This document shows, one piece after another, positions 321 through 10,252 of a stretch of DNA of 10,252 nucleotides. The position numbers were made by a program, and so were the translations under genes. Position 1 is the first letter of the stretch. The number at the start of each line of letters is the position of its first letter. This stretch comes from Fervidobacterium sp. (lineage in GTDB: Bacteria > Thermotogota > Thermotogae > Thermotogales > Fervidobacteriaceae), in the NCBI GenBank assembly GCA_003522805.1, contig DPIB01000048.1, positions 1-10,252 on the forward strand, written 5' to 3'. The notes beneath the pieces are model-generated. The model was not told where the DNA came from. It worked only from the letters and a program-made list of their open reading frames with translations, and did no database searches.

Positions 321-617
321 ATGACTTCAAACAGTGAAAAAGAAAGTAAAAAAGTAACAATAAAAATCTGTCTTGGAAGCTCCTGCCATTTAAAAGGTGC
401 ATATGAAATGACAAGAAGATTGAAAGAAATGTTTGAAGACGATCCAAATGTTGTGCTAGCTGGTTCGCTGTGTATGAACAATTGTGCGAATGGTGTCATT
501 CTTGAAATTGACGGTAAAACTGTCTCGAAGGTGACCCTAGATAATTTAGAGGAAGTAGTGAAGAAAAAGATTAGAGATACGCAGAAACGGTTGGTGGATG
601 GTAATGAAACAGAGTGA
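321..617 (+). CDS. Stand-alone thioredoxin-like [2Fe-2S] ferredoxin
   Basis: This 98-residue protein has the NuoE-type thioredoxin-like [2Fe-2S] fold: C17-x4-C22 (CLGSSC) and C51-x3-C55 (CMNNC) are the four cluster ligands. It probably passes electrons to or from the hydrogenase-like protein encoded next. Start choice: the upstream in-frame TTG at 315 falls inside the ribosome binding site GGATGGTGAT (306-315), so the ATG at 321, 5 nt after it, is preferred. The gene overlaps the next by 14 nt, implying translational coupling. The sequence closely resembles the C-terminal domain of HydA in this window (CLGTSC..KGSYE), more than it resembles HydC. It is equivalent, by position, to the small ferredoxin gene before the sensory hydrogenase in T. 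maritima. The partner is inferred. Confidence 0.88.
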   Translation: MTSNSEKESKKVTIKICLGSSCHLKGAYEMTRRLKEMFEDDPNVVLAGSLCMNNCANGVILEIDGKTVSKVTLDNLEEVVKKKIRDTQKRLVDGNETE

Positions 618-2250
618 GTATATCATCTCAAATGATGCAAACTGTAAATACTGCTACAAATGTTTGAGAAACTGTCCAGTGAAGGCGATAAGTTTTCATG
701 ATGAAAAGTCGTTTGTCATAGAAGAAGAATGCGTGCTTTGCGGAACATGCGTAACCGTATGTCCACAGCATGCAAAGAACTATAGGCGAGATATCGACAA
801 ATTCGATTCCATTCTTGGGAAACCCTTCGTCATATCCATTGCCCCATCTGTTTACGCACATTTTGATAAACCGTTGAAATTATTCGATATCTTCAGAAAT
901 CATGGATGTGTATACATTTCAGAAACCGCAGTCGGAGCTGAATTTGTTACGAAAGAATATCTTAAGCAGATAGAAATGGCTGACGGTCCTCGCATAACAA
1001 CATCTTGCCCTGTTGTTGTCAACATCGTAGAAAAGTATTTCCCAGAATTCATTGAATACCTTATGCCCATTGTTTCACCTGCTATTGCACATTCAGAGTT
1101 CCTAAGACACAGATTTGGAGATCTACCGAAAGTTTTCGTCGGACCTTGTGTTGGGAAAAAAGAAGAACTAAAAGAATACTATGATGTTGTGCTAACTTTT
1201 GAAGAAATCGAAGAATGGATAGAGAAAGAAGAGCTCAATGTTGAATCTTACCAGGACAAACTACCAGACCCTCCATACCCAGAAAGAAGCAGAATGTATC
1301 CAATGACAGGTGGCATAATATTTTCTGCCGACAAACAAGCAATTGATCACATAGTTATAGAAGGGGCAGAGAATATCATTGATTTCCTCGAGAAGTTGCA
1401 AACCTCTCCTCATGAACCAGTGATTATAGAAGCATCTGCATGCATAGGTGGGTGCTTAAACGGCCCTGCTATGAGAAAAGATAACAACATTCTAGCAAGA
1501 AAGAGCATGCTTACAGAATACTTTAGGATTCTTTCGAAAGTTGAAGACAAAAGAGTGGGTGTTTCAAACTACAATTTCAAACTTTCAAGGGCTTTTACTA
1601 ACAAGCAAGTAAAAATAGATGTCCCAGAAGAACGGATAAGACATGTTCTGCACCTGTTACACAAAGATGACAAATCAAAAGAACTGAACTGCACAGGATG
1701 CGGATATGAAACTTGTTATGAAAAGGCCAGAGCAGTAGCTCTTGGTAAGGCTGAAAAGGATATGTGCTTTGCGTATCTTGTTGAGATAGTTTCTTCCGTA
1801 AGTTACAAGGTAGTCGACGAGACACCCAATGCTATCGTCATATTCAAAGACTCGCGTCTTACTTACATAAACACATCTGCGAAGAAGTTATTTGAAGGAT
1901 ACACTGACGAAAAAATCTTGGAAATATGTAAAAAAGTATATGCCAAACGATACAAGATACATGAACTATACATAAACTCAAGAAAAGTTTATTTCTATCC
2001 AAAAACTTTCGAACTTCCAGGAGATGAAGGCAACGTAGTGCTTTTTGTTGACATTACAGACATGGTCCTTCAGAAGGAGAAAATGGATGAAATAAAACAC
2101 AGGAGTATACAGAAAATAGAAGAAGTACTGAACGATCAGATGAAATTGGCTCAAGACATTGCAGGTTTGCTCGGTGAATCCATAGCTGAAACCAAGTCAC
2201 GTTTCTTGGAATTCAAGAAATACATGGAGGGTGACAATGATAACCTGTGA
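604..2250 (+). CDS. hydS: Sensory-type [FeFe] hydrogenase with PAS domain (HydS-like)
   Basis: Domains in order (548 residues from ATG 604): two [4Fe-4S] ferredoxin motifs (C14/17/20/24, then CVLCGTCVTVCP), an H-cluster domain (about 75-310), a C-x2-C-x4-C-x16-C [4Fe-4S] domain (C363, C366, C371, C388), a PAS domain (about 400-475) and a C-terminal helical, probably coiled-coil segment. Cysteines that should hold the H-cluster remain: C135 (SCP), C182 (GPCVGKK), C280 and C284 (ACIGGC). The proton-relay cysteine of catalytic enzymes (first C of TSCCP) is Ser134, and the methionine of the ExMxC motif is Ser278. Such changes and the PAS tail mark group C sensory hydrogenases, of which T. maritima HydS is the studied example. 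Expected role: cytoplasmic H2 or redox sensing, with output through the PAS region to the co-translated phosphatase. ATG 604 has GGTGG 6 nt upstream; ATG 598 has no room for a ribosome binding site. Confidence 0.88.
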   Translation: MKQSEYIISNDANCKYCYKCLRNCPVKAISFHDEKSFVIEEECVLCGTCVTVCPQHAKNYRRDIDKFDSILGKPFVISIAPSVYAHFDKPLKLFDIFRNHGCVYISETAVGAEFVTKEYLKQIEMADGPRITTSCPVVVNIVEKYFPEFIEYLMPIVSPAIAHSEFLRHRFGDLPKVFVGPCVGKKEELKEYYDVVLTFEEIEEWIEKEELNVESYQDKLPDPPYPERSRMYPMTGGIIFSADKQAIDHIVIEGAENIIDFLEKLQTSPHEPVIIEASACIGGCLNGPAMRKDNNILARKSMLTEYFRILSKVEDKRVGVSNYNFKLSRAFTNKQVKIDVPEERIRHVLHLLHKDDKSKELNCTGCGYETCYEKARAVALGKAEKDMCFAYLVEIVSSVSYKVVDETPNAIVIFKDSRLTYINTSAKKLFEGYTDEKILEICKKVYAKRYKIHELYINSRKVYFYPKTFELPGDEGNVVLFVDITDMVLQKEKMDEIKHRSIQKIEEVLNDQMKLAQDIAGLLGESIAETKSRFLEFKKYMEGDNDNL

Positions 2251-3376
2251 AATACACTACGCTCAAAAAAACAGATCAGGTGAATCCATTTGTGGAGATA
2301 CAATAAAAATAAAGAAGAGTGAGGAAAAGACAGTCGTTAGCATATCCGACGGACTGGGAAGTGGAGTAAAAGCAAGTATATTATCCACTCTAACCGCGTC
2401 TATGGCAACAACGATGGTCTTTGATGGTATATCTATATCCGAAGTGTTTGAATCGATAATCTCAACACTTCCAACTTGTAAAGTACGTGGCATAAGCTAT
2501 GCGACGCTAGCGACATGCCTAATCGACCACGAGAATGAGAAATGTACCATCTTCGAATACGATTTCCCAGTAGTATTGATCTACCGTGACGAAAAATTCC
2601 TTGGCTATGAGAAGGACTTTAAAAATATACAAGGTAGAAAGATCTCCGAAATGAGTACTGACATAAAAATAGGGGACATCATATTCCTCATGACAGATGG
2701 CATATCACAAGCTGGGATGGGTACAAGCAGATATCCATTTGGCTTTGGTCTGGACAACATCGTTAAAGAACTCGACAACTTATTAGTTAACAAAGTCGAT
2801 TTACCTAGCATAACAAACCATCTTATAAGACTGGCAGAAGCATTAGATTACAAAACTAAAGGTGACGACGCAACTGTCTGCGCAATAAAAATCAGGGAAA
2901 AACGCCTCGTTACGATCATGGTCGGTCCACCAGAGAAGAAAGAACATGACAAAATAGTCGTCACCAGGCTTATCGAATCGGAAGGAAAGAAAGTCATATG
3001 TGGCGGTACAACAAGCCAAATAGTTGAAAGAATACTTGGAAAGAAAGTAGAGATCGACTTTTCAACTATTTCCGAAATATCTCCCCCTGTTGGATACATG
3101 GACGGTATAGATTTAGTTACTGAGGGCATAATCACACTCACACAGGTCTTCAGATACTACGAGGGTCAATCAACTGAACTTGGCATCGGTGCACAGAGAC
3201 TTGTAGATATGCTCAACGAAGCCGATGTAGTGAACTTCCTTGTTGGACGCGCCATAAACCCGGCCCATCAGAATCCATTATTCGTTCATGATATCTCTTT
3301 GAAATTCAGATTGATCTACGATATTGCAAACATACTCGAGAGAATGGGAAAAATCATCAATATAGAGTATTATTGA
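2237..3376 (+). CDS. SpoIIE-family PP2C-type Ser/Thr phosphatase with extra C-terminal domain
   Basis: The first about 220 residues are a PP2C/SpoIIE catalytic domain: metal-binding Asp in GD21, D38-G-x-G-x-G (SDGLGSG), TD154G and GD210-D211-AT. It should dephosphorylate phosphoserine or phosphothreonine on a regulatory protein, typically an anti-sigma antagonist. Residues about 228-379 form a second domain, with G230-PP, C255-GGTT, GIDLVTEG and INPAHQNP (about 340-347) as its distinctive motifs; I know this tail from SpoIIE-like proteins beside [FeFe] hydrogenases but no assigned function. ATG 2237 sits 6 nt after GGAGG (2226-2230), and is preferred to the GTG at 2231. The 14-nt overlap with the sensory hydrogenase implies coupled translation and a shared pathway. 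No STAS antagonist or anti-sigma kinase is in the window, so the substrate is unknown. No membrane segment is seen. Confidence 0.87.
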   Translation: MITCEIHYAQKNRSGESICGDTIKIKKSEEKTVVSISDGLGSGVKASILSTLTASMATTMVFDGISISEVFESIISTLPTCKVRGISYATLATCLIDHENEKCTIFEYDFPVVLIYRDEKFLGYEKDFKNIQGRKISEMSTDIKIGDIIFLMTDGISQAGMGTSRYPFGFGLDNIVKELDNLLVNKVDLPSITNHLIRLAEALDYKTKGDDATVCAIKIREKRLVTIMVGPPEKKEHDKIVVTRLIESEGKKVICGGTTSQIVERILGKKVEIDFSTISEISPPVGYMDGIDLVTEGIITLTQVFRYYEGQSTELGIGAQRLVDMLNEADVVNFLVGRAINPAHQNPLFVHDISLKFRLIYDIANILERMGKIINIEYY

Positions 3377-3477: not shown

Positions 3478-3506
3478 TTGACATTTACAGCATTCTGCCA
3501 TATCAT
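3478..3506 (+). promoter_or_regulatory. Promoter of the hydCBA-rex operon
   Basis: TTGACA (3478-3483, consensus) and TATCAT (3501-3506) are separated by 17 bp. Transcription should start around 3512-3514, leaving a leader of about 137 nt before hydC. The start site is covered by operator-like palindromes, so the promoter looks strong but repressible. GTGAAAA also occurs upstream of the -35 (3455-3461). Confidence 0.82.
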
Positions 3507-3617: not shown

Positions 3618-4127
<510 letters not shown>

Positions 4128-4129
4128 AT

Positions 4130-6025
4130 ATGATAACTACAACGAGAAAGAGATTCGATAATGCAGAAGAAATCATAAAATGCGTAGAGAAGCTAAAGGC
4201 AAAGAGAGAAAAGAAGCTTCAGAAGAAGTCTGTATTCGTCTGTGTAGGTACAGGCTGTACAGCAGGTGGTTCTAGAAAAGTCTATGCAAAGTTTGTAGAG
4301 GTAGTAAAGAATAAAGGCTTAGATGTAGCGATCGAAAAGATAGATGATGATGACGAACCGGTGAAAAGGACGGGATGCTGTGGTTTGTGTTCACTTGGGC
4401 CACTTGTAAAAGTAATGCCACAAGGGATTACATATAGTCATGTCACAATTGATGACGTAGAGGAAATTGTTGAAAAGACACTCATTAACGGAGAACCTAT
4501 AGAGAGATTGCTTCTTACAGATCCGATTACCCACAAGAAAGTTGAAAGGCTTGAGGATGCAACGTTTTTCAAGAATCAGACCTTTTACATAATGAACGAG
4601 GTAGGAACAAGCGTGTTCGAGAGTATTGAAGACTACATGGCACGTGGAGGGTATCTATCGCTTGCTAAGGCAATATCAATGGACAAGAAAGAACTGATTG
4701 AAGAAATAAAGGCGTCAGGACTACGCGGTCGTGGTGGTGGAGGATTTCCAACGGGTCTGAAATGGGAGGCCGCATACAATAGTAAAGGTGATATCAAGTA
4801 TGTTGTATGTAATGCAGACGAAGGTGACCCTGGAGCATTCATGAACAGGACACTTCTTGAAAGAGATCCTCATTCTGTTTTAGAAGGTATGATCATAGCC
4901 GCATACGCGATAGGTGCAGAAGAAGGCTATGCATACATTAGAGCAGAATACCCGATTGCAGTTGAAATGTTCAACAAGGCTATAGAGTCTGCAAAAGAAT
5001 ATGGACTACTTGGTGAAAACATACTTGGAACTGATTTCTCGCTTGACATACATGTAAAAGAAGGTGCAGGGGCATTTGTTTGCGGAGAAGAAACAGCGCT
5101 ACTCTCTTCAATAGAAGGGAAACGCGGAGTTCCCAGACCAAGACCGCCATTTCCAGCCCAATCAGGTCTGTGGGGCAAACCAACACTCATCAACAACGTC
5201 GAAACCTATGCAAATGTTCCCAAAATATTAAGAGATGGGGTAGAAAGTTATAGAAAAAAGGGCGTGCAAAAATCACCTGGAACGAAAATGTTCTCTGTCA
5301 CAGGTCCCCTCAATCTAACTGGAATAATCGAAGTACAGTTTGGTACAACATTGAGATACATCCTTGAAAACATCTGTGGTGGTACATCAAATGGCCGTAA
5401 GATAAAGGCTATTCAAATAGGTGGACCATCCGGTGCATGCTTGCCTGAGGAACTCTTTGACCTGCCACTTGACTATGACACACTAAAATCTGTCGGTGCA
5501 ATGGTTGGTTCTGGCGGTATTGTTGCAATAACAGATGACAGATGTATGGTCGAAGTTGCAAGGTTCTTCCTGGACTTCACAAAACGCGAGTCCTGTGGAA
5601 AGTGTGTACCATGTAGAGAAGGCACGATGCAAGCATATAACATACTTGAGAAATTCACTCAGGGCAAGGCAACATACGATGATCTTGAAACACTGGAATA
5701 CGTTGCTGAAATCATTAGGACTACATCACTGTGTGGTCTTGGTAAGACAGCTCCAAATCCTATAATAAGCACGTTGAAGTATTTCAAAGAAGAATACATT
5801 GAACACATAGAAGGAAAATGTCCAAGTGGTATGTGTACTTCATTCAAGAAATACATGATCTCTGCCGAGAAGTGTAAGAGTTGTAGCCTGTGTGCAAGAA
5901 GTTGTCCGAATGGTGCGATCAGTGGAGAACGTGGCAAACCGTACGTAATAGACCAAGAAAAATGTGTCAAGTGCGGACTATGTATCACAAAGTGTAAGTT
6001 CGGTGCAATAGAACTTGTCGGGTGA
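4130..6025 (+). CDS. hydB: Electron-bifurcating [FeFe] hydrogenase, subunit HydB (FMN/NADH-binding)
   Basis: HydB is the flavin subunit, where NADH is oxidised at FMN and electrons are split toward the H-cluster and ferredoxin paths. From ATG 4130 (631 residues) the domains are: a thioredoxin-like [2Fe-2S] domain (C38-x4-C43, C83/C87), a NuoF core with the FMN/NADH motif RGRGGGGFPTGLKW (about 199-212) and NADEGDPGAF (228-237), an SLBB stretch, a NuoF-type [4Fe-4S] site (C489-x2-C492-x2-C495 plus C535), and two C-terminal [4Fe-4S] ferredoxin motifs (C582/585/588/592 and C612/615/618/622). Length agrees with T. maritima HydB. In the last motif the usual Pro after the fourth Cys is Lys (CKFG). 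Start is uncertain: GTG 4124 overlaps the hydC stop and has GGAAGG 4 nt before it; ATG 4130 is 10 nt away. Confidence 0.95.
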   Translation: MITTTRKRFDNAEEIIKCVEKLKAKREKKLQKKSVFVCVGTGCTAGGSRKVYAKFVEVVKNKGLDVAIEKIDDDDEPVKRTGCCGLCSLGPLVKVMPQGITYSHVTIDDVEEIVEKTLINGEPIERLLLTDPITHKKVERLEDATFFKNQTFYIMNEVGTSVFESIEDYMARGGYLSLAKAISMDKKELIEEIKASGLRGRGGGGFPTGLKWEAAYNSKGDIKYVVCNADEGDPGAFMNRTLLERDPHSVLEGMIIAAYAIGAEEGYAYIRAEYPIAVEMFNKAIESAKEYGLLGENILGTDFSLDIHVKEGAGAFVCGEETALLSSIEGKRGVPRPRPPFPAQSGLWGKPTLINNVETYANVPKILRDGVESYRKKGVQKSPGTKMFSVTGPLNLTGIIEVQFGTTLRYILENICGGTSNGRKIKAIQIGGPSGACLPEELFDLPLDYDTLKSVGAMVGSGGIVAITDDRCMVEVARFFLDFTKRESCGKCVPCREGTMQAYNILEKFTQGKATYDDLETLEYVAEIIRTTSLCGLGKTAPNPIISTLKYFKEEYIEHIEGKCPSGMCTSFKKYMISAEKCKSCSLCARSCPNGAISGERGKPYVIDQEKCVKCGLCITKCKFGAIELVG

Positions 6026-6045: not shown

Positions 6046-8052
6046 ATGAAGATAACTGTTAATGGTAAGCAAGTCGAGATAAATAATGGCTCAAAAAATG
6101 TTTTGGAAGCACTGAGAGAAGTAGGCATAGAGATTCCAAACCTATGTTATCTTTCCGAAACATCTGTCTACGGTGCTTGCAGAATGTGCCTCGTAGAAGT
6201 TGATGGAAAGGACATAGTTACTTCGTGTACACTCACACCCAGAGAGGGAATGAGCATAAAGACACATACACCACAGATATATGAAATGAGAAAGGGCATT
6301 TTACAACTCTTGCTTGCTTCCCATGATGGTGATTGTACAACTTGTGAAATGAACGGGAAATGCAAACTACAGAGATACGCACGAGATTTTGGGCTGACAA
6401 CGAATAGATTTGAAACAGTCTCTAAAAAAGCTGTTACAGACAACACATCGATAATTGTTAGGGACAATGCTAAGTGTATACTCTGTGGAGATTGTGTAAG
6501 GGCTTGTGAAGAATTGCAGACTGTTGCTGCTATAGACTTTGCACATAGAGGATTCGATACGCAAGTTGTTCCATCGTTTGAAGAGAAATTGGAAAACACC
6601 GAATGTGTCTTCTGTGGTCAGTGTGTTGCTTATTGCCCAACAGGTGCACTCTCCATAAGAAACGATGTTGATAGGGTCTATAAGGCAATCAAAGACGGAA
6701 AATACGTTATTGGAATGATCGCTCCCGCGGTTAGAGCTTCACTTCAAGAAGAATTTGGACTCGAAGATGATATTGTAATGGCAGGTAGAATGGTCTCTGT
6801 ACTCAAGATGATCGGATTCAAGAAGGTTTTTGATGTGGCATTTGCTGCAGACTTAGTTGCATATGAAGAAGCACACGAGTTCCTGGATAGACTTGAGAAG
6901 AACGAAAGATTACCGCAGTTCACTTCCTGTTGTCCTGGATGGGTGAAGTTTGTAGAGCAGTATTACCCAGAATACCTACCACACCTATCAAGCGTAAAAT
7001 CACCACAAATGGCACTTGGTGCAGTGATAAAGAAGTATTATGCAAAAGAACTAGGTGTGAACCCTGCAGATATAGTTCTCGTATCGATCATGCCATGTAC
7101 CGCTAAGAAATTCGAATCTGAAAGGGAAGAATTCAATGGTGATGTAGACATTGTCCTTACAACGAGAGAACTCGTAAAGGTATTCAAATCAACAGGAATG
7201 GATATAAAGATGGTAGACCCAGAACCATTTGACAGACCTTTTGGACTCTCATCCCAATCTGGATTGAGCTTTGGCAAAACGGGTGGTGTACTTGGCAGTG
7301 TTGTGGAAGTCATTGCAGACAAAGTAGCTGTTAAGAACGTAAATACAAGACAGATCTTCGAAGGCACGAACCTCACAGAAGTTGAACTCGAGAACGGGAA
7401 AATCGTTCGGGGTGTTGCAGTATTTGGATTGGGCAACGTCAGAAAAGTAGTAGACAAGCTGAAAAGTGGAGAACTTCAAGCAGATGTCGTAGAAGTCATG
7501 GCATGCAACTACGGTTGTATCGGTGGCGGTGGACAGCCCTATCCGAATGATATTAGGACCCGTACAAAGAGGGCAAGAATACTTAAAGATACACAGAGTG
7601 TTGATGTGCTCATTTCTCCGACCGAGAACTTCCATATGAGACAGCTATACGAAAAGTACTTCGGTGCCCCCTTGAGTCACGAGGCGCATGAAACGATGCA
7701 TACAGAATACAGACACAGAAGAAGAGTACAGGAAAAAGAAATAGAAATACTTCCACTACCAACTGATGATGAAGACAAAATCGAAGTCAGCGTATGTTTG
7801 GGTACATCATGTTACACCAAGGGATCATATGAAATACTCGAAAAACTCATAGCACTATCGAATAACGAAGAATGGGCAAAGAACTTAGAGATAAAAGGTA
7901 CATTCTGCGTAGAGAATTGCGGTAAGGCACCAAATGTCGTAATCAATGATAAAATAGTAGATGAAGCAACAATCGAAAAGATAAAAGAGGTGGCGCTTAG
8001 TGAGATCAGAAAAGAAGAAAGAGATCCTGAGGTTTCCAAAAGCAACCTTTGA
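6046..8052 (+). CDS. hydA: Electron-bifurcating [FeFe] hydrogenase, catalytic subunit HydA
   Basis: HydA carries the H-cluster that makes H2 from protons. Its 668 residues contain an N-terminal [2Fe-2S] domain (C34, C45, C48, C61), a His-ligated [4Fe-4S] site (H93-x3-C97-x2-C100-x5-C106), two [4Fe-4S] motifs (C144/147/150/154 and C187/190/193/197), and the H-cluster domain with all three signatures intact: TSC295-C296-PGW, MPC351-TAKK and MAC487-x3-C491. A linker leads to a C-terminal thioredoxin-like [2Fe-2S] domain (C584-x4-C589, C621-x3-C625). This domain layout is that of the T. maritima enzyme. Start ATG 6046 follows the strong site GGAGGGTGAT (6031-6040). The last 53 nt overlap rex. The proton-relay C295 is present, in contrast to the sensory homologue upstream, so this is the catalytic enzyme. 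Maturases HydE/F/G are not in the window. Confidence 0.96.
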   Translation: MKITVNGKQVEINNGSKNVLEALREVGIEIPNLCYLSETSVYGACRMCLVEVDGKDIVTSCTLTPREGMSIKTHTPQIYEMRKGILQLLLASHDGDCTTCEMNGKCKLQRYARDFGLTTNRFETVSKKAVTDNTSIIVRDNAKCILCGDCVRACEELQTVAAIDFAHRGFDTQVVPSFEEKLENTECVFCGQCVAYCPTGALSIRNDVDRVYKAIKDGKYVIGMIAPAVRASLQEEFGLEDDIVMAGRMVSVLKMIGFKKVFDVAFAADLVAYEEAHEFLDRLEKNERLPQFTSCCPGWVKFVEQYYPEYLPHLSSVKSPQMALGAVIKKYYAKELGVNPADIVLVSIMPCTAKKFESEREEFNGDVDIVLTTRELVKVFKSTGMDIKMVDPEPFDRPFGLSSQSGLSFGKTGGVLGSVVEVIADKVAVKNVNTRQIFEGTNLTEVELENGKIVRGVAVFGLGNVRKVVDKLKSGELQADVVEVMACNYGCIGGGGQPYPNDIRTRTKRARILKDTQSVDVLISPTENFHMRQLYEKYFGAPLSHEAHETMHTEYRHRRRVQEKEIEILPLPTDDEDKIEVSVCLGTSCYTKGSYEILEKLIALSNNEEWAKNLEIKGTFCVENCGKAPNVVINDKIVDEATIEKIKEVALSEIRKEERDPEVSKSNL

Positions 8053-8677
8053 AAGGCTTAAACAATATCATGCCCTCTTAACGCAACTGAAAATTGAACA
8101 GAAACAACAGTACATTCTGTCAGAAGAGATTGCAGAGATGTTAAGAATTACGCCTGAGCAGGTAAGGAAAGACTTTTCGTATCTTGAAACAGCAGGCAAA
8201 CCAAAGGTAGGATACAATATCGCAGAACTGCTTGCAGAACTAGATGAATTGTTTGGAACAAATGCCAATGACAACATCATCATAGTGGGCGCAGGACATC
8301 TGGGAAGCGCACTTGCAAACTACAAAGGATTTCAAAACATCGGAGCACGTGTAGTTGCCATATTTGACAAAGACCAAGAAAAAATTGGGAAGATGGTGGG
8401 AGAACTCATGATCCTTCCACTGAAGGACATCCCAAGAGTTATACGGAGATTCAAAGTCAGAACTGCGGCCATCTGCGTACCTGAAGAATCTGCTCAGCAA
8501 GTTGCAGATTTACTAGTTGCATACGGAATAAAGGCAATTTGGAACTTTTCTACAAGGATACTTGATGTGCCTAATGATGTAATAGTCCAAAACGAAGACA
8601 TAACCAGAGGCCTGCTTAGCATCAAACATATGCTTGCAGAATCCGAAAAGAAAAACTACGAAAGTTCACAAGCTTAA
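8000..8677 (+). CDS. rex: Redox-sensing transcriptional repressor Rex
   Basis: Rex binds DNA when NAD+ is plentiful and is released by NADH, so it should raise hydrogenase expression when reducing power accumulates. The 225-residue protein has an N-terminal winged helix with the recognition motif VRKDFSYL (about 55-62), a Rossmann NAD(H)-binding core with G97-AGHLG102 and an acidic strand end (IFDKD), and the C-terminal domain-swap helix after WNFSTRILDVP. The wing reads ETAGKPKVGY where most Rex proteins have a FG..GKRGVGY-like stretch, a modest divergence. The GTG start at 8000, inside hydA, is supported by GAGGTGG (7987-7993) with 7 nt spacing. Being last in the operon it probably represses its own synthesis through the palindromes at 3509-3540. 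Confidence 0.93.
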   Translation: MRSEKKKEILRFPKATFERLKQYHALLTQLKIEQKQQYILSEEIAEMLRITPEQVRKDFSYLETAGKPKVGYNIAELLAELDELFGTNANDNIIIVGAGHLGSALANYKGFQNIGARVVAIFDKDQEKIGKMVGELMILPLKDIPRVIRRFKVRTAAICVPEESAQQVADLLVAYGIKAIWNFSTRILDVPNDVIVQNEDITRGLLSIKHMLAESEKKNYESSQA

Positions 8678-8860: not shown

Positions 8861-10252
8861 TTAGATATTCCAAATTTCATGATATTCGTGGGCTGTCTCA
8901 CAATACTCGCAGATAAACTTTCCATCGACACGTACAAACGAAGCAGTAACGTTCTCACCATGCACAGGATTTGTGATGCAGTTCTCATTTTTACATCTGA
9001 TTTCATCAAACCCATATATTCTTGGAGGTAATTCTATTCTGTACTTTTCTTCTACTTTCCCATTTTTTACTACATTCACTGTCGTATTTGGCGAGATAGC
9101 AGATAGTTTCTTGATCTCTTTGAAACTAAGATATCTATCTGGCAAACTGATGTAACCTTTGTAATTTCCGTCGGCTGACTTAAAAATTCCGTCCGCACTA
9201 TCTACTTCGTATAGCTTCAGAATCCTACGTATCTTCAATATCGTGTTGTAAATCTCATCCGTTGATTTTCCCTTGGCTATGTGGTCTATTACTGTGCCAT
9301 TACTGATTGGCTTGATGCCCCTCTTGCCATCTTTCTGGGTGCCCTTTGTTCCATCAACAATTGGGGCGGGTAATATGAAATCTTCCACCGGCTCTTCCTT
9401 TTTAACTGTTGTATCAAAATCTGCTTTGAGTGCCCCACCCAGCATGGACAAGAGTACAACGCGCACCCAATATCCATTTATCGCTTGACCTTCCCAACCA
9501 TTCAGTGGTAAATTATCGAGGAAAATAGGTATTTCTGGATCTTCCTTGGGGCGTGGTAACGGATGGTAAAATCTTGTGTCTTCGGATATTTTATCAAGCA
9601 GATCTTTTCTGAAGGTTACTGCTTTCTTAAGCAAATGTGCCTTTTCAAGTATGTCTTCGCCCATTCGCTCGAGCTGTAGTCTGGTGAAGTACCATATCTT
9701 TGCAGGGTCACCATAGGACAAATATTCGTCGATTGAATTGAAAGTCCTCACTTCGAATCCATTCCTTTTCATCTTGCTCACATAACTTTGTGGCATTTGA
9801 AGCTGTTGAGGTGCAACCAAGTCTACTTGCACATTCCTAAAGATTCTAAGTCCATCGGCTTTAGAATGGACAGTCCTGCCATGGAGCAAGTCACCAACAA
9901 GCGCTATTCTGATGTGCGAATTATCGAAATTATTCTGCTCCAAGAATGTGTATTCATCGAGTAACTCTTGCGTTGGATGTTCATGTTTTCCATCACCACC
10001 ATTGATAAACGCTGGTCTGACTATACCATGTCGATCTGCAAAATCACCCACCTTCTGCTCCAATAACCTGCAAACGCCTTCAAGACGCGTCCTGAGGACG
10101 AATATCGAATAATCGCTGTAGCTTGTTAACATATTGAAGGTATCTACGTAGCTTTCATGCTTGTTGAATGAAGAATGTTCAGACTCGAAGATATTTACCT
10201 TTGCATTCTTGTGGAATTTTGCAGCATTGCTGAAGGATTCTTTCGTTCTCGT
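8861..10252 (-). CDS. pyrBI: Fused aspartate carbamoyltransferase PyrBI (5' end outside the window)
   Basis: This enzyme joins carbamoyl phosphate and aspartate in the second step of pyrimidine synthesis. Of the protein 463 codons are visible; the reading frame stays open to the window edge, where TRTKESF gives the carbamoyl-phosphate motif (S)TRT, so only the extreme N-terminus is missing. Catalytic motifs follow: HPTQ (9968-9979), LVGDLLHGRTVHS and HPLPR (9551-9565). After a linker the regulatory chain begins near NGTVIDHIAKG and ends with a C4 zinc site, C-x4-C (8978-8995) and C-x2-C (8900-8911). The one-polypeptide catalytic-regulatory fusion is known from T. maritima, where it is an allosteric enzyme. 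The gene converges on rex, with no sign of functional link. Its promoter lies outside the window. Confidence 0.96.
   Translation of the reverse strand, partial: TRTKESFSNAAKFHKNAKVNIFESEHSSFNKHESYVDTFNMLTSYSDYSIFVLRTRLEGVCRLLEQKVGDFADRHGIVRPAFINGGDGKHEHPTQELLDEYTFLEQNNFDNSHIRIALVGDLLHGRTVHSKADGLRIFRNVQVDLVAPQQLQMPQSYVSKMKRNGFEVRTFNSIDEYLSYGDPAKIWYFTRLQLERMGEDILEKAHLLKKAVTFRKDLLDKISEDTRFYHPLPRPKEDPEIPIFLDNLPLNGWEGQAINGYWVRVVLLSMLGGALKADFDTTVKKEEPVEDFILPAPIVDGTKGTQKDGKRGIKPISNGTVIDHIAKGKSTDEIYNTILKIRRILKLYEVDSADGIFKSADGNYKGYISLPDRYLSFKEIKKLSAISPNTTVNVVKNGKVEEKYRIELPPRIYGFDEIRCKNENCITNPVHGENVTASFVRVDGKFICEYCETAHEYHEIWNI

Follow-up and report, generated by a model that had tools for sequence, protein, structure and literature searches.

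A probable phosphatase-linked sensory [FeFe] hydrogenase of Fervidobacterium: a conserved sensor–phosphatase pair with a candidate coupling helix

Introduction

Sensory [FeFe] hydrogenases have been studied spectroscopically, and a 2026 paper on a group D enzyme calls the finding of their interaction partners critical (PMC13104023). A phosphatase has been put forward as such a partner in several systems: Table 1 of the HydDB classification of 2016 names a class C3 of “Phosphatase-linked (putative)” [FeFe] hydrogenases (PMC5037454), a phosphatase subunit with a sensory hydrogenase was proposed for Ruminococcus albus in 2019 (PMC6776011), and in the hfsABCD genes of Thermoanaerobacterium, as described, HfsB is a PAS-containing hydrogenase and HfsC a serine-phosphatase homologue (PMC11837493). 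The genes TM1420–TM1422 of Thermotoga maritima are likewise listed as sensory hydrogenase genes (PMC3561251). Here we describe a locus of this kind in a 10,252-nucleotide (nt) stretch of Fervidobacterium sp. DNA (contig DPIB01000048.1, assembly GCA_003522805.1; hereafter the window), which is one whole contig of a genome 82% complete and in which the gene for a sensory hydrogenase, HydS, overlaps that for a SpoIIE/PP2C-type Ser/Thr phosphatase.

The pairing has been proposed already and the cassette is ordinary as a class; what a comparison across Thermotogota adds is a PAS-only variant of the sensor, an unannotated phosphatase domain with near-invariant cysteines, and an apparent independence from STAS proteins. 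An initial annotation of the window, made from its letters alone, had called the signalling partner and target of such sensors not established. For the partner this gives way to the C3, R. albus and HfsC proposals, and for the target it holds within the literature searched: no paper found names, in its available parts, the phosphatase substrate or the C-terminal domain, many journals lying outside the coverage of the search. The comparison supplies the spectroscopically studied sensors with a concrete partner and a candidate contact segment, the terminal helix of HydS; the hydrogenase-less natural variant is a usable control, and genomes can be named in which the textbook target was not found. 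Hydrogen (H2) is a product of these organisms, and ethanol of relatives; published genetics point to a part for the pathway in setting the balance between the two.

Comparison with described systems

On the + strand the window carries, in order, genes for a [2Fe-2S] thioredoxin-like protein, HydS and the SpoIIE/PP2C phosphatase (together, the trio), followed by hydC, hydB, hydA and rex. The features of the trio, with the evidence for each in brackets, are as follows.

315–617, + strand: thioredoxin-like [2Fe-2S] protein, gene 1 of the trio (start TTG 315 or ATG 321; PF01257, 4.5e-8)
604–2250 (or from ATG 598), + strand: HydS, sensory [FeFe] hydrogenase with C-terminal iron–sulphur (FeS) cluster, PAS domain and helix (Pfam, motifs)
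625–783, + strand: two N-terminal ferredoxin-type [4Fe-4S] sites of HydS (Fer4, Fer4_10)
820–1479, + strand: hydrogenase domain (H-domain) of HydS, with Ser at the proton-relay Cys position (PF02906, 1.4e-40; motif counts)
1690–1767, + strand: C-terminal [4Fe-4S] motif of HydS, Cx2Cx4Cx16C (PF04060, 3.2e-7; conserved, 3.41 bits)
1804–2052, + strand: PAS domain of HydS (AlphaFold2, Foldseek, homology to PAS-only proteins)
2056–2232, best conserved at 2134–2211, + strand: long C-terminal helix of HydS, candidate phosphatase-coupling element (model, conservation)
2237–3376, + strand: SpoIIE/PP2C-type Ser/Thr phosphatase, 379 amino acids (open reading frame, Pfam, model)
2240–2902, + strand: catalytic PPM domain of the phosphatase (all 166 aligned rows retain Asp 21, 38, 154, 210 and 211)
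2903–3373, + strand: C-terminal alpha/beta domain of the phosphatase, unannotated, 157 amino acids (GPP, CGGTT, EGxDLVTEG and NPAHQNP motifs)

As in HydDB class C3, H-cluster motifs lie in the Fe_hyd_lg_C domain, a PAS domain stands C-terminal to it, and a SpoIIE-family Ser/Thr phosphatase gene is adjacent. T. maritima HydS (TmHydS) shares with the window the domain order, an altered proton-relay residue (Ser in the window, Ala in T. maritima; PMC10407848), the linked Ser/Thr phosphatase and the position upstream of the bifurcating hydrogenase. The loci differ in the gap before hydC, which is 274 nt in the window (to ATG 3651), whereas 27 of the other 47 copies have hydC 3–18 nt behind the phosphatase. 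We take TM1422 to be the phosphatase of the T. maritima trio. The hfsABCD order type, also present in genome G015 of our survey, differs from the window in driving a ferredoxin-linked hydrogenase, HfsD, and the group D (TamHydS) type differs in that the window HydS has a PAS domain after its C-terminal cluster. The RsbP and RsbU proteins of Bacillus resemble the cassette in their PAS domain (RsbP), helical linker and PPM output (PMC12143880), but there sensor, linker and PPM domain are fused and act on the STAS protein RsbV, whereas in the window, divided into two genes, no sensor or helical linker precedes the PPM domain, sensor and helix sit in HydS, the phosphatase has an extra C-terminal domain, and STAS is apparently not obligatory.

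Conservation of the pair

Among 103 Thermotogota genomes the phosphatase was found in 48, or 47 once a generic SpoIIE hit had been dropped, in 48 copies including that of the window. (G005 and weak second hits of G019, G057 and G060, generic SpoIIE with E-values of 2e-5 to 2e-4, were removed before counting; the G007 copy, split over two contigs, was counted once, and the HydS of G090, split into two frames of 301 and 230 amino acids, was counted as HydS.) In all 48 copies the gene directly upstream encodes HydS or a PAS protein, with a spacing that ranges from an overlap to a 23-nt gap; in the window the overlap is 14 nt (2237–2250), in agreement with the initial annotation, or 20 nt if the upstream GTG at 2231 is the start. 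A thioredoxin-like [2Fe-2S] homologue lies upstream at every surveyed phosphatase locus uncut by a contig end, except in G026. The HydS–phosphatase arrangement is found again and again across Thermotogota and is not a matter of chance, and because the trio stands without hydCBA in other copies, including several Fervidobacterium-type genomes, the conserved unit is the trio and not the whole operon. No open frame among the Thermotogota matches joins HydS and phosphatase into one, and a search of viral contigs for relatives returned none. Long branches in the phosphatase tree make the positions of G026, G015 and Acetoanaerobium noterae unsure.

A plasmid-collection search for the phosphatase gave three clostridial records (R. 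albus 7, Monoglobus and A. noterae), in two of which sensor and phosphatase are linked. The order in R. albus 7 and Monoglobus is [2Fe-2S] gene or genes, HydS, phosphatase, hydrogenase. In R. albus 7 (pRUMAL01) the two genes overlap as in the window, there by 8 nt, a hydrogenase follows, and the phosphatase is 36.5% identical to that of the window over its full length, C-terminal domain included. What sets the R. albus cluster apart from the window is that rex, adhE and the gene of an APH-type kinase lie upstream and that the stretch shown has no hydCBA. The initial annotation had held that routine separation of the two genes in related genomes would speak against their link; none is seen in Thermotogota, and one of the three outside records, A. 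noterae, has them apart.

The APH-type kinase gene of pRUMAL01 (PF01636; L113, 6049–6798) is placed two small genes ahead of HydS, with adhE on one side and the [2Fe-2S] genes on the other. It is possible that the kinase opposes the phosphatase, and PMC5707799 may refer to this kinase where it credits Zheng et al. 2014 with an “adjacent Ser/Thr protein kinase”. A search for it in the Thermotogota loci surveyed gave a best E-value of 0.11. In A. noterae (L115 and L116), which keeps both HydS and phosphatase, the phosphatase adjoins coenzyme A-transferase and DUF445 genes.

The sensor and its terminal helix

HydS retains the three H-cluster cysteine motifs (TTSCP, GPCVGKKEE and EASACIGGC) and has Ser at the usual proton-relay Cys position, where Thermotogota HydS have Ala in 29, Ser in 9, Pro in 1 and Cys in 0 of the 39 readable rows (40 in all). 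Fe_hyd_lg_C (1.4e-40), Fer4 and the FeS family PF04060 are above their Pfam cut-offs. The PAS domain, sub-threshold in Pfam by sequence alone (PAS_8, E-value 0.013), is homologous to stand-alone PAS proteins (E-value 4e-13 when whole genomes were searched and 1e-12 within a small local set). Its AlphaFold2 model (predicted local distance difference test score, pLDDT, 80; predicted template-modelling score 0.58) shows a PAS fold that leads into one long helix, about 59 residues in length and modelled with confidence that drops towards its end; in Foldseek this PAS–helix model resembles PAS/LOV structures (best E-value 4.2e-5). The initial annotation, which described an H-cluster with its cysteines kept, a changed proton relay, and fusion to [4Fe-4S] and PAS domains, is borne out on each point, for the proton relay at the position of its Cys, and HydS is probably a hydrogen or redox sensor.

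Over 39 rows and seven segments with hand-set borders, mean information content is highest in the terminal helix (3.48 bits), ahead of the C-terminal cluster (3.41), the ferredoxin part (3.2), the H-domain (2.77) and the PAS domain (2.32), which makes the helix, judged by its conservation, a candidate docking element for the phosphatase. In a tree of 27 H-domains the window HydS falls within a branch of 14 Thermotogota HydS (100/99), and phosphatase-linked rows and those linked to methyl-accepting chemotaxis proteins (MCP) do not separate cleanly, the HydS of G095 grouping with the MCP-linked G043 (87/77). The G043 hydrogenase (L072, 6875–8887) is fused to a chemoreceptor domain (PF00015), and that of G074 (L085, near 6785), from inspection of its C-terminal residues by eye, has a chemoreceptor-like signalling domain at its end; both are of the MCP-linked sensory type.

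Seven phosphatase copies (G019, G021, G038, G040, G046, G101 and the second copy of G084) have upstream, in place of HydS, a protein of 165–171 residues with PAS domain and helix but without an H-domain. The hydrogenase beside these PAS-only sensors is of group-B type (508 bits to TIGR04105, cut-off 450, in G021; the others assigned by BLAST to G021). In G095 the HydS before the phosphatase has the helix and lacks the PAS domain, and a PAS-only gene stands just before it; the phosphatases of the seven PAS-only copies and of G095 form one branch (100/99). A route from H-cluster through PAS to phosphatase, which the initial annotation had read from the domain order, is thus not obligatory. What the HydS with PAS, the PAS-only proteins and the PAS-less G095 HydS have in common is the helix, with a motif near QMxxAQEIAxLLGExxAETK whose short form is present in 39 of 40 HydS rows, G026 deviating, and in every one of the 9 PAS rows, among which the C-terminal piece of the split G090 HydS is counted; a stricter form also missed G002. 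A database search with the PAS-only protein of G021 returned 18 proteins, including itself and some fragments. On contig C30 of G056 (L117, 6018–6661) a thioredoxin-like gene stands with a PAS-only gene that matches only up to residue 135; no phosphatase was found on that contig or elsewhere in this 71%-complete genome, and the shortened locus looks like a remnant.

The phosphatase and its C-terminal domain

The phosphatase matches SpoIIE (PF07228, 9.9e-16) above cut-off and combines a predicted PPM fold with the metal-binding aspartates of the PPM/PP2C SpoIIE type. In the model the PPM fold begins at residue 2, so the enzyme is predicted to have no N-terminal regulatory region of its own. The C-terminal domain matched no family above cut-off in profile searches, and its best hit in a sequence-profile search of the PDB (E-value 0.2) is not significant; it is modelled mostly at a pLDDT of at least 90, with the NPAHQNP stretch (residues 341–350) at only about 52. 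In fold searches with the whole phosphatase the PPM domain (model residues 1–222) took up the matches, and we claim neither a fold class for the C-terminal domain nor the absence of one. The domain is conserved in the full-length members examined and probably supplies substrate or ligand recognition. A stand-alone occurrence is not claimed: 349 of 416 candidates matched, and most of the 120 that were listed come from short contigs and resemble fragments. Three phosphatase cysteines, C19, C81 and C255, have no SpoIIE counterpart and are almost invariant; the idea of an obligate use of all three is weakened, since for each there are one or two divergent rows in which it alone is absent.

Mechanism and alternatives

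We favour, at a probability of about 0.6, the reading that the cassette is a phosphatase-linked sensory [FeFe] hydrogenase of class C3 in which HydS sets phosphatase activity in trans through its helix. The H-domain and clusters would read H2 or redox state, and the change would travel through the C-terminal FeS cluster and the PAS domain to the terminal helix; this may dock on or dimerise the PPM phosphatase and so set its activity, by analogy with the coiled-coil linker of RsbU and RsbP, which dimerises and activates the PPM domain in cis (PMC12143880), and the phosphatase would dephosphorylate a protein on Ser/Thr through which the output of hydrogenase and fermentation genes is adjusted. 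Such coupling is supported by the linkage in all 48 Thermotogota copies, by a helix common to all sensor types and conserved above all other HydS segments, by the predicted PAS domain with long helix and the predicted PPM fold with its metal-binding Asp kept, and by the gene order in R. albus and Monoglobus. Published work agrees: the eight-gene sensory-hydrogenase cluster of R. albus falls 111-fold in co-culture with Wolinella, ascribed to the H2 level (PMC6776011), and deletion of hfsB, which is HydS-like, raises ethanol yield and adhE transcripts (PMC5707799). The Thermoanaerobacterium genetics support a regulatory role of HfsB and do not show HfsC as its effector, and here several observations weigh on the other side. 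Deletion of hfsC leaves ethanol at the wild-type level (PMC5707799), and expressing hfsD by itself in a strain without hfsABCD produces the high-ethanol phenotype (PMC11837493), for which hfsC is therefore dispensable; the C-terminal cluster of a group D HydS is not reduced by H2 (PMC13104023); the PAS-only variants indicate a module able to run without an attached H-domain; and A. noterae, where HydS lies some 882 kb from the phosphatase in the same 2.6-Mb record, is a real exception to the linkage. That last case, together with the separation of the trio from hydCBA-rex in several Fervidobacterium-type genomes, would suit a mere sharing of an operon, with HydS and phosphatase co-expressed for a common purpose and not interacting; we think this improbable, given a 5′-sensor/3′-phosphatase order unbroken over 48 copies, even without the H-domain, and a strongly conserved HydS helix for which hydrogenase chemistry offers no obvious use. 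Less remote, if still doubtful, is a core module of [2Fe-2S] protein, PAS domain and phosphatase that senses intracellular redox and not H2, the H-domain being a lineage-specific input that can be dropped: the seven PAS-only copies beside a group-B-like hydrogenase, the recurrent [2Fe-2S] thioredoxin-like gene and the near-invariant phosphatase cysteines all fit, but the PAS-only-linked phosphatases form one branch and so may be one derived case, and HydS with complete H-cluster motifs is present in most copies.

A target in a STAS/anti-sigma partner switch, implied by the initial annotation, is disfavoured by G082 and G084, two genomes of 98% completeness each that retain the pair although no switch is detectable: neither has a STAS protein by PF01740 or PF13466, their best PF13581 matches are weak (3.9e-7 and 6.7e-8), and every SpoIIE phosphatase they encode is HydS- or PAS-linked. 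STAS is present in their relatives G078 and G085, and strong PF13581 matches and further SpoIIE phosphatases in G077–G080 and G085, so that the pair is retained where the partner switch has apparently gone; failure to find STAS may also reflect divergent sequences or gaps in the assemblies. That the phosphatase activates a STAS/RsbW switch controlling a sigma factor draws on the source genome, which holds one RsbW-like kinase (matched by RsbW models below their cut-offs) and three STAS proteins, and on PF13581 matches below an E-value of 1e-13, a threshold of our own choosing, in 45 of 47 phosphatase-bearing as against 38 of 56 other genomes, with relatedness ignored. The kinase and STAS genes lie, however, on contigs other than that of the cassette, as do two further SpoIIE phosphatases that could serve the switch, of which, by eye, one follows a receiver-like part and the other is joined to such a part, and alongside G082 and G084 this makes such activation unlikely. 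The target is probably not of the usual STAS kind, and the genome comparison supports a substrate that need not be a STAS protein. More tentatively, HydS-linked phosphatases might be separate, STAS-independent redox-signalling enzymes, in which a PPM domain activated in trans by the helix of HydS or of a PAS protein is joined to a substrate- or metabolite-recognising C-terminal domain and a three-cysteine redox or metal switch. The signalling interpretation of the initial annotation is accordingly upheld in part, for the conserved unit, and not for a STAS target, an obligatory PAS route or a partner still to be established.

Flanking genes

Downstream of the trio the window carries the bifurcating hydrogenase genes and rex.

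3651–4127, + strand: hydC, bifurcating hydrogenase (PF01257, 1.3e-53)
4124–6025, + strand: hydB (PF01512, PF10589)
6046–8052, + strand: hydA, catalytic [FeFe] subunit (PF02906, 9.4e-92; best NCBIfam match NF040763, below its cut-off)
8000–8677, + strand: rex, redox-sensing repressor (NF003996, above cut-off)

In the source genome hydCBA-rex may have its own promoter. A promoter-like TTGACA-17-TATCAT lies at 3478–3506, in the gap before hydC; promoter- and terminator-like sites in the window are not commoner than in shuffles. Rex-like palindromes (one mismatch allowed) number 9 in the window against 8.35 expected by chance and are uninformative, and an Rfam scan of the whole window gave no match. 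A 15-nt inverted repeat lies 5′ of the trio (46–60 and 158–172, 93% complementary, 97 nt between the arms). On the − strand, 8861–10132, aspartate carbamoyltransferase catalytic and regulatory (PyrI) parts are joined in one frame as a PyrBI-type fusion that runs off the contig end. Of the named relatives found, Fervidobacterium sp. UBA5837 is the closest, with a phosphatase 86% identical to that of the window.

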